Shown here one piece after another: positions 2,474 through 12,193 of a stretch of 24,340 nt of DNA. Position numbers and translations under genes: made by a program. Under the pieces are notes generated by a model. That model was given only the letters and a program-made list of their open reading frames with translations, searched no databases and was not told the origin of the DNA. The DNA lies in the IMG/VR virus record IMGVR_UViG_3300037088_000580, positions 1-24,340 of that record; one strand, 5' to 3'. The stretch is from a virus. Within the stretch, counting starts at the first letter, position 1. Each line of letters starts with the position of its first letter.

Positions 2474-4257
2474 GTCGCAACCGAGTCCTCGACGATGACG
2501 TCCACCGGCTGCTGCGTGTTCGTGGCGTCTGCCAGATCGTTCGACGTGGTGTCGTCCGTGCTGGGCTTGTCCACCCGCACCTCCACGTAGTTGCAGAGGT
2601 CCAGCGTCAGCCCGAGCTGGCTGTCCCCCGACCCATCCCAGGCGTGCTGCAGCGTCTTCACCCGAAACGTGCTCTGCAACCCGATGCCGCTCACCGCGGC
2701 CTGGTACGCATCCGCCAACGCTGCGCCGAACCCGAGCGATCGCAAGTAGTCCGCTGCGCCCTGGTCCAACGATCGCGTCACTTCGCCCGCAGTGGTGCTG
2801 ATGCCCTCCTCGCTCGGGTCCCGCATCAGCTCAACGTCCACCGCGTCCCCGGGCCGCAAGTCGAGCGCGTCCGGGTCCAGGTTGCCACCCCCGTAGCTTC
2901 CCAAGTTGCTGGTCTGCACCCGCACCGATAGCTCGTTGCGCCCCATCGTCTCGTAGTAGCTCTGCGCCACCAGCTTCAGCGTCTTCTGGTCACCGATACC
3001 CTCAACCGTGAACACCGACCACTTCTGCTCGGTCGCGTCACCCGGCGCCGGATGCGCCAACCGGTCCTCCTTCGTCTCCGGGAATCGCGCCACCAACGTG
3101 GTCTTCCGGTCGGTTTGGTAACATCTCACTTCCACGTTTTTCGGCTGGTACGTGCCGAACCGTCGCTTGCTCCCCATCTCCCAGATGTTCCGCCCGTACA
3201 GGTACAGCCGCCGCGTCAGTACGCGGCCCCCGGGTAACCGCCGTCCCGAAAAGGGGTCTTCCGCACGCGCCGGCAGACGGTTGTCGTACAGCGACCGAGG
3301 CGTCTGCACGATGATGCTGTTGCCGTCCACGCGCACCGAATGCCCGATGGCCCGGCACACGTCCGTCAGGTAGTCCCACACCTTCAGTTTACCTGACCCA
3401 CCCGTGCTCGGAGAAGGCCCGAGCTTCGGCTGGAACTTGGTCGCGAGCAGAACCGCCTTCAGCACCGGTACCTTGTCCCGCGTCACCCGCGGCAAGTACG
3501 TCACGCTCATCCCGCGCATCTGCGGAAAGTTTGCCAGGTACGTGGCAATGGCCTTGTCGATCGGCAGCGCCGGATCGAGCACGAGCTTCTGCGGCGCGTC
3601 TTGGTTGATCAGTAGGAACGTGTTGTCCACGCACTCGAACCGCACCGTGGGCGCGTCCTCCGATGGCCACTCGTCGTCCCACTCATCCACCCACCCGCTG
3701 AACCGTAGGTTGGTTCGCCGCCGGCCGTACGGGTCCACGTACTCGTCCGGGACCACGTGGTAGGGCAACCCGCCCGCCGGCGTGGCGTCCGCCCGGATCT
3801 CCCCGTTGATGCCCCGCTGGTAGTCCTCCGGCGTGATGCACCCCTCGAAGTACTCCACCGCACACGCCCGGATCGCCCGCGGGTCGAAGGGGAAGTCCCG
3901 GTAGGCCACCTCGAGCGACAGCGTGTCCGCGGTCCGGATGCCGTTGAACTTCGGGTCAGCCGTCAGCGGGATAATCCCGTCCACCACCCACGTCTTGCTG
4001 TCGCTCGAGCTGCGCTGCTCCTGTGGGCTCCCCATCGAGTTCGGGTCCCCCCCGGGCTGCCCCAACTGAAAGCTCCCGTCCGGCTGCTCCACGACCTGGA
4101 GCTGCACCGTGCTCACGTCACTCTTGCCCTTGCGCAGGTGCGGAGGCTTCACCGGCGCGCTTGCCGTGGTCACCCGCCCCCAGTCCTCGAACCGCAGAAT
4201 GAACCGCACCCGGGCACTCGGGTAGTAGCTCTGGATCGGTTCCTCGCGCCCGGGCAC
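2470..4257 (-). CDS. Baseplate hub protein (gp27/gpD-like)
   Basis: A 595-aa protein placed between a LysM tail protein and the OB-fold spike, the usual position of the trimeric hub (T4 gp27, P2 gpD). Visible support: an N-terminal beta-rich region (V-R-F-I-L-R-F-E-D-W near residue 20); a D-T-L-S-L-E-V-A-Y-R-D-F-P-F-D segment typical of the first tube-like domain; N-L-R-F-S-G-W-V-D-E-W (about 187); and L-K-V-W-D-Y-L-T-D-V-C-R-A-I-G, a helix common in late-control D proteins. L-R-P-G-D-A-V-D-V-E-L near residue 470 fits a later hub strand. The start is GTG at 4257, overlapping the end of the LysM gene with a frame change; other in-frame starts are possible. The C-terminus is acidic and Thr/Asp-rich. 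Assignment rests on pattern and synteny, not a search. Confidence 0.72.
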   Translation of the reverse strand: MPGREEPIQSYYPSARVRFILRFEDWGRVTTASAPVKPPHLRKGKSDVSTVQLQVVEQPDGSFQLGQPGGDPNSMGSPQEQRSSSDSKTWVVDGIIPLTADPKFNGIRTADTLSLEVAYRDFPFDPRAIRACAVEYFEGCITPEDYQRGINGEIRADATPAGGLPYHVVPDEYVDPYGRRRTNLRFSGWVDEWDDEWPSEDAPTVRFECVDNTFLLINQDAPQKLVLDPALPIDKAIATYLANFPQMRGMSVTYLPRVTRDKVPVLKAVLLATKFQPKLGPSPSTGGSGKLKVWDYLTDVCRAIGHSVRVDGNSIIVQTPRSLYDNRLPARAEDPFSGRRLPGGRVLTRRLYLYGRNIWEMGSKRRFGTYQPKNVEVRCYQTDRKTTLVARFPETKEDRLAHPAPGDATEQKWSVFTVEGIGDQKTLKLVAQSYYETMGRNELSVRVQTSNLGSYGGGNLDPDALDLRPGDAVDVELMRDPSEEGISTTAGEVTRSLDQGAADYLRSLGFGAALADAYQAAVSGIGLQSTFRVKTLQHAWDGSGDSQLGLTLDLCNYVEVRVDKPSTDDTTSNDLADATNTQQPVDVIVEDSVAT

Positions 4258-8299: not shown

Positions 8300-9222
8300 T
8301 CATTTTTCCTCGCCACCGTTGGCCCGGTACACCCGCTCGAGCAGCCGGTTTGTTGCCCGCATCATCCCCAACGCAGTCTGCGTCGTGAGCCGGTCAATCT
8401 CCGAATACGGCTGCTCCTGGTGGTAGGCCAAGAACGCGTACACGTCGAGCAGGTCTTCCAGCCGCGTCTCTGGATCGAACTCGTAGTGCAGCTCCAGGAA
8501 CCGCCGGATGTTCGCCCGCTCGCTTCGGGCACTGTACCCGGGCGCCAGCAACTCGAGTCGGTCGTCAACCACATCTGGGTCGCTGACGATGCCGCTCGCT
8601 TCCCGGGCTACCCCGCACTCCTGACAGCGATGCAGCTCTCGAAAAAATACGCCATCTGCTCCTTCGACAGCGTGTGCAGCTGCCCGAAGATGCGATGCAT
8701 CGAGCTGCGACACCGCGGCCCGATTTCTTCCCACCACACGTCGATGGAACCTGCACCTGGCATCCCCGACCAGTCCACTACCGCGCCGTCGATGGCTCGC
8801 ACCATCTGCTTGGCGAACTCGTCCACCTGCCGGTTCGGGTCGCCCACGCTGCGCTGCAGCCCGAGCTTCTGGTCGCCAATGCTCATGTCCCAGCAGATGG
8901 CCTGCCGCCACAGCCCCGGCTCACCCTCGATCTCGTACCCCTTCTTCGGCGTGCTGGTCCACTCCGCTCGGAACCGCACGAAGATGATCTGACGCCCCTT
9001 CGGGAAGCGCATCCCCTTCGGGATCTTCACCCACCCCGGAGCGCCCCCGTTGGTCGGCTCCGGCAAGGTCACCAGCCGCTTGATCTCCTGCTCGGCTTCC
9101 ACTTCCTTCTGCTCCGCCGCCGCCACCTCCTCGGGCGTGGGCTTGTCCGCCGCCGGATCGTCAAACTCCAACGGCTGCTCGGCCACGATGGCCACCTGAG
9201 GGTCTGCTTGCTGCTCGGTCAT
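8300..9222 (-). CDS. Tail assembly chaperone G-T fusion made by -1 frameshifting
   Basis: The upstream frame (9222 to 8608) and the frame behind it (ending at 8300) join at the heptamer TTTTTTC, positions 8647 to 8641, read T TTT TTC in the first frame. Slipping back one base continues as R-E-L-H-R-C-Q-E-C-G-V-A-R-E-A, giving 194 + 113 = 307 residues. The T part is helical (L-D-V-Y-A-F-L-A-Y-H-Q-E-Q) and carries a CxxC motif right after the slip point. It has no ribosome-binding site or plausible start of its own. The position immediately before the tape measure, and this geometry, match the G/G-T chaperones of lambda and many long-tailed phages, where the rare fusion recruits tail tube subunits to the tape measure. 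Confidence 0.82.
8608..9222 (-). CDS. Tail assembly chaperone G (unshifted product)
   Basis: A 204-aa protein that starts with ATG behind a good Shine-Dalgarno (GGGAGGATAGCCC, then ATG). The N-terminal 50 residues are acidic and likely flexible (P-T-P-E-E-V-A-A-A-E-Q-K-E-V-E-A-E-Q-E). The rest is folded, with R-Q-I-I-F-V-R-F-R-A-E-W-T, L-W-R-Q-A-I-C-W-D-M-S-I-G-D-Q and V-D-W-S-G-M-P-G-A. The terminal helix S-K-E-Q-M-A-Y-F-F-E ends at the slippery site, and the zero frame stops ten codons beyond it. In the lambda-type system G binds the tape measure in excess over G-T. Gene order tube, chaperone, tape measure supports the call; no sequence search was possible. Confidence 0.8.
   Translation of the reverse strand: MTEQQADPQVAIVAEQPLEFDDPAADKPTPEEVAAAEQKEVEAEQEIKRLVTLPEPTNGGAPGWVKIPKGMRFPKGRQIIFVRFRAEWTSTPKKGYEIEGEPGLWRQAICWDMSIGDQKLGLQRSVGDPNRQVDEFAKQMVRAIDGAVVDWSGMPGAGSIDVWWEEIGPRCRSSMHRIFGQLHTLSKEQMAYFFESCIAVRSAG
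8641..8647 (-). other. Slippery heptamer TTTTTTC for -1 frameshift
   Basis: On the minus strand the reading is GCG TAT TTT TTC GAG. The bases 8647-8641 fit the X XXY YYZ rule (T TTT TTC). After slipping, the next codon is CGA at 8641-8639, which enters the T frame. A six-T run in such GC-rich DNA stands out by itself. A short GC hairpin (CGGG-GTAG-CCCG) lies about 25 bases further on and includes the zero-frame stop. Confidence 0.82.
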
Positions 9223-12030: not shown

Positions 12031-12165
12031 AGGGGGATCTCCTCAACCGAAACTTCGTCGCGGGGTGCGACCCGACACGTTCCAGGAGATCCGCCTGATT
12101 GGTCCGCCGGTGGCGCGGTTGGGGTGTGGGCCGTTGGGCTCTCTACAGCCCGATCAGTACCACGC
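12031..12165 (-). promoter_or_regulatory. Structured leader of the sheath gene, copy of a shared element
   Basis: The leader contains two blocks identical to the capsid leader (12084-12118, 35 nt; 12144-12165, 22 nt) with a 25-nt spacer. Possible RNA pairings on the minus strand are as follows. CTGATCGG (12157-12150) pairs with CCAATCAG (12102-12095) with one mismatch. GGGCT-GTAGAG-AGCCC (12151-12136) and CGCC-ACC-GGCG (12115-12105) form hairpins. GGATCTCCT (12092-12084) is perfectly complementary to the ribosome-binding segment AGGAGATCC (12043-12035). Between them GTCGC-ACCCC-GCGAC (12071-12057) forms another hairpin. Upstream bases could also hold a phage late promoter. Function is inferred; the repeat and complementarities are seen directly. 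Confidence 0.72.
12084..12165 (-). repeat. Long direct repeat, copy 1 (partner at 16459-16538)
   Basis: Two exact blocks, 35 nt (12084-12118) and 22 nt (12144-12165), match the capsid leader in the same order and orientation. The 25-nt spacer here and the 23-nt spacer there are only partly alike (a shared GGTG-GGGCCG core). Both copies end a similar distance from a start codon. Confidence 0.95.
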
Positions 12166-12193
12166 GAAGCCCACGACCTCCAAGCCCCGCCCG

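Follow-up and report, generated by a model that had tools for sequence, protein, structure and literature searches.

Small pseudoknots lie near the ribosome-binding site (RBS) in the preQ1-I and SAM-II riboswitches and in the rpsO r-protein operator. In phages, the gene 32 leader of T4, T2, and RB69 forms an H-type pseudoknot 67 nt upstream of the start codon, with the RBS as the regulated site (PMC3014915); a review of 2010 considered the T4 gene 32 pseudoknot as perhaps the only viral one acting in translational autoregulation (PMC3014915). In T4 e, soc, 49, and I-TevI, the RBS is shut by a complementary arm upstream, and the active late transcript is without the 5′ arm (PMC3014915). In cluster K mycobacteriophages, start-associated and extended start-associated sequences, with a proposed role in translation, consist, at many non-structural genes, of 13-bp GGGATAGGAGCCC repeats accompanied by 17-bp inverted repeats (PMC3203893).

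The DNA considered here is a 24,340-base virus record of IMG/VR (the window, meaning the whole stretch analyzed), with the genes for the tail sheath and the major capsid protein on the minus strand (Table 1). Their two leaders have the same order: a 23-nt block, a block of ∼35 nt with GGATCTCCT at its end, a hairpin region, AGGAGATCC, and the start codon. A 34-nt core is identical in the sheath and capsid leaders and occurs in exactly two copies in the window (vs. 0 in shuffles). With the help of relatives, the block common to both leaders is resolved as a predicted H-type RNA pseudoknot, which the preliminary description of this locus had overlooked.

The T4 gene 32 leader is the closest precedent, with its H-type pseudoknot upstream of the RBS in a phage mRNA leader. 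The present leaders, however, are G+C-rich, of other sequence and able to pair, without the A+U-rich UUAA repeats between knot and RBS; the knot precedes capsid, sheath, or scaffold genes and not the gene of a self-repressing ssDNA-binding protein, and the family has in addition an RBS-closing helix and a wider distribution. Because the UUAA repeats and the ssDNA-binding gene, two defining features, are both lacking, the element does not belong to the T4 gene 32 family. With the T4 e, soc, 49, and I-TevI hairpins it shares an upstream arm predicted to close the RBS; the differences here are a pseudoknot attached to that arm and promoter-like sites that lie on its upstream side. Like the cluster K elements, it is conserved at translation starts of actinophage genes, but here a pseudoknot stands at one or two virion genes, in few copies per phage, and the 13-bp repeat of cluster K is not in the leaders read. 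The small knots of preQ1-I, SAM-II, and rpsO are alike in their place near the RBS; the present one differs in lacking an Rfam match and in being linked to neither metabolic nor ribosomal genes.

Table 1. Positions in the window of the two virion genes and of the elements of their leaders
Feature	Positions	Strand	Remarks
Tail sheath gene, 742 aa	9802-12030	-	PHROG 23 tail sheath, E 1.6e-8
RBS AGGAGATCC of sheath gene	12035-12043	-	Read from sequence
Inner hairpin GTCGC-ACCCC-GCGAC, sheath leader	12057-12071	-	Read from sequence; formed in MFE
Anti-RBS arm GGATCTCCT, sheath leader	12084-12092	-	9-bp complement of RBS
Pseudoknot, sheath leader	12091-12118	-	Identical to capsid copy; register fits L015, L003, L032, L036, L093
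Sheath knot S1, CCGC with GCGG	12118-12115 with 12107-12104	-	
Sheath knot S2, CCACC with GGCGG	12113-12109 with 12095-12091	-	Central A-C mismatch
Sheath knot loop 3, ACCAATCA	12103-12096	-	
Shared 23-nt block GCGTGGTACTGATCGGGCTGTAG, sheath leader	12143-12165	-	
Promoter-like site, sheath leader (TTGGAG, 17 nt, GTACTG)	12155-12183	-	Sequence only
Major capsid gene, 471 aa	14985-16400	-	PHROG 1357 major head protein, E 2.5e-18
RBS AGGAGATCC of capsid gene	16406-16414	-	Read from sequence
Inner hairpin TCGCC-ACC-GGCGA, capsid leader	16429-16441	-	Read from sequence; MFE structure
Anti-RBS arm GGATCTCCT, capsid leader	16459-16467	-	Two G common with S2
Pseudoknot, capsid leader	16466-16493	-	Aligned with covarying homologs
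Capsid knot S1, CCGC with GCGG	16493-16490 with 16482-16479	-	
Capsid knot S2, CCACC with GGCGG	16488-16484 with 16470-16466	-	Central A-C mismatch
Capsid knot loop 3, ACCAATCA	16478-16471	-	
Shared 23-nt block, capsid leader	16516-16538	-	
Promoter-like site, capsid leader (TTGTGT, 17 nt, GTACTG)	16528-16556	-	Sequence only
Inverted repeat ACAAGGCGGC ... GCCGCCTTGT, upstream of capsid leader	16553-16592	-	Read from sequence

With the capsid protein as query, three loci were obtained by single sequence, 79 from IMG/VR by alignment, and five from genomes. The 79 viral relatives have capsids of 36%-69% identity, and most capsid leaders (130 bases read upstream of each start) contain a conserved element, for example ACGCGGCACACCGGCGGTCAACAGGTGGAA. 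One of the five loci from genomes, L092 (PMZA01000011.1), is the same phage as that of the window (capsid 100% and sheath 99.7% identical). It is binned in an Armatimonadetes MAG, and the host of the window phage is for this reason uncertain.

The strands of the pseudoknot follow each other as S1-5′, loop 1 (0-6 nt), S2-5′, loop 2 (0-2 nt), S1-3′, loop 3, and S2-3′. Stem S1 is CGN...N′CG and S2 is CRCC...GGYG and variants; loop 3 is often GUCAACA, and the typical core reads ACGN...N′CGGUYAAC. Since the 3′ strand of S2 was misplaced when all leaders were aligned together with MAFFT, a subset with fixed loops was chosen as model seed. In these 16 leaders, 97.3% of the cells are paired, with 12 two-sided changes (vs. 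3.0 in shuffles) and a covariation of 0.364 (vs. 0.149 shuffled and at most 0.088 in slid registers). A covariance model with S2 as its only pairs (R1) gathered and aligned 35 matches. Aligned on S2 only, the 34 distinct matches are paired in 97.9% of cells, with 27 two-sided cells (7.1 shuffled) and a covariation of 0.339 (0.134 shuffled); S1, which is no guide for this alignment, is paired in 95% of cells. The third S1 pair is C-G, U-A, or G-C in the alignment and, with the A-U of L069 (from a parse), occurs in all four Watson–Crick types. On the capsid tree, the pair type changes nine times at this third S1 pair, and 17 and 12 times at two S2 pairs (G-U scored as a type of its own). A parse forms the knot in 55 of 56 leaders, whereas 72% of shuffled elements cannot form it; as that parse is fitted, the pseudoknot rests on both covariation tests and on the changes along the tree.

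The preliminary description had proposed a search for covariation in homologous leaders; once run, it finds both S1 and S2 covarying. The idea of a functional RNA whose pairing outlives base change and which can hide the RBS is thus backed by homologs, but the evidence is elsewhere than that description placed it: the covarying parts are the pseudoknot of the shared block and an arm–RBS helix of varying sequence, not the inner hairpin. The inner hairpin had been described as compensated. Compared base by base between the sheath and capsid leaders, the four TCGC/GCGA pairs have the same bases in both, with no two-sided change, and compensation is ruled out; the hairpins differ solely by one extra pair, at opposite ends (GTCGC/GCGAC in the sheath leader, TCGCC/GGCGA in the capsid leader). 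The suggested CTGAT/ATCAG stem is unsupported: CTGAT is inside the promoter-like −10 region and not conserved in relatives, whereas several retain the AATCAG part. A CGCC-ACC-GGCG hairpin is possible in the window, but in relatives the same bases make up two interleaved pseudoknot stems.

The window copies have the longer S1, a subtype seen also in L003, L015, L093, L032, and L036. Where their S2 has the central A-C mismatch, A-U, G-C, or G-U is found in relatives. The copies could also adopt another register, CCG/CGG with CGCC/GGCG. The copies are not matched by model R1, which was built from the other subtype; the stretch GGCGG[A/T]CCAATCAGG is common to the window and L044. We regard the window as a divergent member of the family, placed there by sequence, position, and gene and not by model score.

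Between arm and RBS, the complementarity reported earlier is correct in coordinates and sequence, with 9/9 bases in each leader. In folding, the unpaired probability of the RBS is 0.00 in both window leaders (vs. 0.41 and 0.48 in shuffled leaders), and the MFE structures place the RBS almost wholly inside the arm helix. For the relatives, the duplex energy of each leader's own arm and RBS was compared with that of arms swapped between leaders. In all 56 leaders z is −6.2; in the 50 without near-duplicates, own pairs give −12.55 and swapped pairs −10.29 kcal/mol (z = −6.0, 0/20000 permutations), and z is still −5.7 with the first four S2 bases left out. A cruder cut with a looser identity, with 29 leaders left, gave a weaker p = 1.5e-4; since that filter dropped too many leaders, it was replaced by the set of 50. 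On a grid of offsets, the signal is found chiefly on the antiparallel diagonal from knot to RBS (arm +4 with −20/−14, +12 with −26, +20 with −32), with little elsewhere in the leader. Examples of arm/RBS pairs are GGTGGACTCC/GGAGTCCACC (L036), GGTGGAAAC/GTTTCCACC (L039), and GGTCAAACC/GGTTTGACC (L035). The distance from arm to RBS and the sequence between them are widely variable. These comparisons argue for arm–RBS pairing as a real, family-wide statistical trend. When folded without pseudoknots, ∼16 of the 56 leaders, both window copies included, have the RBS closed by the arm with a probability >0.5, and closure is absent from many; predicted RBS closure is recurrent across the family, not universal.

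The two structures share bases. Of the 25 leaders with strong pairing, 19 have three or all of the first four S2 bases engaged in the RBS helix, which in the window borrows two G of S2, so that pseudoknot and closed RBS would be at least partly alternative. Pairing of the S2 strand itself with the RBS, own against swapped, is weakly favored (18 vs. 13.8 expected, p = 0.046), and the exclusion is for that reason to be read as geometry rather than as demonstrated selection. Past the knot, at ∼15-35 nt, (C)UGCGAAG recurs in many capsid leaders (e.g., L065, L044, and L062), possibly as a GNRA-type hairpin.

The sequence TTG-N20-GTACTG is in register in both window leaders. Among the relatives, promoter-like sites of the TTGAC/TTGCA type occur at the corresponding place in 17 of 52 leaders (1.3 expected) and end ∼60 nt ahead of the 3′ strand of S2; an exact search of IMG/VR for the promoter-like block of the window gave no match. 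The inverted repeat upstream of the capsid leader is a possible terminator of the preceding unit, and similar terminator-like hairpins stand before many homologous leaders. Together, the promoter-like sites and terminator-like hairpins suggest a separate mRNA with the whole element. Further upstream of the capsid gene, two neighboring minus-strand ORFs (17602-18327 and 18367-19311), with DNA ∼71%-75% alike over long stretches, are a tandem gene duplication.

In the 40 records searched whole, significant matches are mainly in the capsid leader, normally one per genome, and in whole records of ∼90 kb with significant matches the best one is in the leader of a head gene. In capsid leaders, the knot is 43-130 nt upstream of the start. 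Capsid and tail sheath are both preceded by it in three lineages: the window, L064 (second copy at 8956-8989, upstream of an ORF at 9045 with a sheath match), and L093 (copy before the sheath gene read by eye); most other sheath leaders examined are without it. Tandem knots precede the capsid gene in L047 (3777-3808 and 3895-3930) and L130 (2165-2199 and 2102-2135, minus strand), an arrangement that resembles some riboswitches or protein operators. In L085, L078, and L083, the knot precedes the gene ahead of the capsid, in L085 a scaffold gene (PHROG 194). Two pattern scans of IMG/VR found the knot directly upstream of scaffold-type genes in other phages (20/20 in the second scan). In GenBank, annotated scaffold genes with the knot are those of the Mycobacterium phages Yoshi, Avani, Jabbawokkie, Zapner, and Soul22, among others, the Gordonia phages ODay, Ecliptus, and Malisha, and Rhodococcus phage ReT1v. 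The S2 of these cultured phages is CGTCC/GGACG, CGCCC/GGGCG, or CATCC/GGGTG, with pairing kept. In scaffold leaders, the knot is operon-internal and abuts the RBS, ending ∼4 nt before the Shine-Dalgarno sequence. At every head or sheath gene read, the element is in sense orientation. Four matches only were found in 350 bacterial genomes, where the element is essentially absent; one is a known phage contig of a Methylocystis bin, and the remaining three appear to be due to chance. Streptomyces phage Kromp and Komagataeibacter phage phiKX1, with distant capsids, are without the element, and model R1 finds none in the Mycobacterium scaffold leaders of Pixie, Juice456, Nicholas, and DirkDirk.

Our reading, to which we give a probability of about 0.6, is that both leaders are structured 5′ untranslated RNAs that control translation of their virion genes, with the RBS of the window closed by default. 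The first part of the leader, established by comparison, is the compact H-type pseudoknot, of a family that stands before virion genes of many phages. From the 3′ strand of the knot onward, the sequence tends across the family, and is strongly predicted in the window, to pair with the RBS region and close it in a long helix. This helix would open on refolding or binding of the leader; the RBS would be freed once a protein, or the sequence in which the RNA folds as it is transcribed, stabilizes the knot. Control would thereby act on translation of the virion proteins produced in the largest amounts (capsid and sheath, and scaffold in other phages), and the leader probably sets the amount of virion protein made.

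Our first guess for the trigger is feedback by an assembly protein. Autoregulation of the scaffold is post-transcriptional in P22. A virion-assembly feedback operator would, as a tentative proposal, have the scaffold, the coat, or a complex of the two bind the knot and fix how much scaffold, coat, and sheath is made; the window and its relatives would have an extended form, an RBS switch with knot and closed RBS mutually exclusive. The ratio of coat to scaffold in dsDNA phages is an old question, and a defined RNA is now to hand, for example in Yoshi and Avani.

The knot might instead mainly shield the 5′ end of abundant virion mRNAs from decay, with the RBS helix tuning the rate and no switch. 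This is unlikely, although it would fit an element near the presumed 5′ end (judged from the promoter-like −10), only ahead of heavily expressed genes, and often far from the start codon with a knot–RBS interval free to vary; the operon-internal position so close to the Shine-Dalgarno sequence in scaffold leaders suits translation control, and the arm–RBS trend would be left unexplained. A small-molecule riboswitch, in which the knot, on binding a metabolite, gates the RBS, is improbable. The compact fold with conserved loop bases, the tandem copies in two phages, and the contact with the RBS in scaffold leaders are as one would expect of it, but the element is tied to virion genes only, a context that suggests no ligand; host metabolic or transport genes with it are lacking, given its near absence from the 350 bacterial genomes, and Rfam gives no match. 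Very improbable is a timing device as in T4 gene e, where read-through transcripts with the arm would be silent and a late promoter inside the leader would give an arm-less active mRNA: the RBS-closing helix with an upstream arm is common to T4 e, soc, 49, and I-TevI (PMC3014915), but here promoter-like sites precede the knot, and the leader's own transcript would therefore hold both arms, many leaders come after a terminator-like hairpin, and the knot covariation requires the element as RNA. That a DNA element (promoter or protein-binding site) was copied to two genes, with incidental RNA pairing, is hardly credible, for while two identical blocks in one phage, the first promoter-like, would agree with it, a DNA site is not expected to show two interleaved stems whose pairs change in a compensated way again and again along the tree; the sense orientation at every head or sheath gene read also speaks against it.

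Phage pseudoknot leaders are a known kind; the present family, its genes, and its union with an RBS helix seem new. The element is not described in the open-access literature searched, which is no proof of absence. Rfam 15 (4227 families) gives no match at the element, in the window at gathering score and in the loci of 13 relatives at E up to 1-2. Matches at relatives' loci to miRNA models, HCV_5BSL1, and proV, none at the element, were dismissed as chance. In L046, a stretch ∼100 nt upstream of the capsid-leader knot (3701-3772) matches BjrC68, a Bradyrhizobium sRNA, just below gathering score (E 1.4e-6). Unrelated to the gene 32 knot, the family at capsid, scaffold, and sheath genes spans uncultured phages of ∼90 kb and cultured phages of Mycobacterium smegmatis, Gordonia, and Rhodococcus.

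In the scaffold leaders L131, L133, L137, L139, L140, L141, and L145-L164, a CCCGCC-loop-GGCGGG hairpin is usual immediately 5′ of the knot; it often follows a CUUCCC, and this CUUCCC could itself pair with the Shine-Dalgarno sequence. In two other scaffold leaders of different sequence, those of Gordonia phage Kenna (L168, 102-185; AGCGC/GCGCT with CGGC/GCCG) and Arthrobacter phage BaileyBlu (L171, 169-239; CGCCG/CGGCG), analogous knots can form, and the class is therefore perhaps wider than the model.
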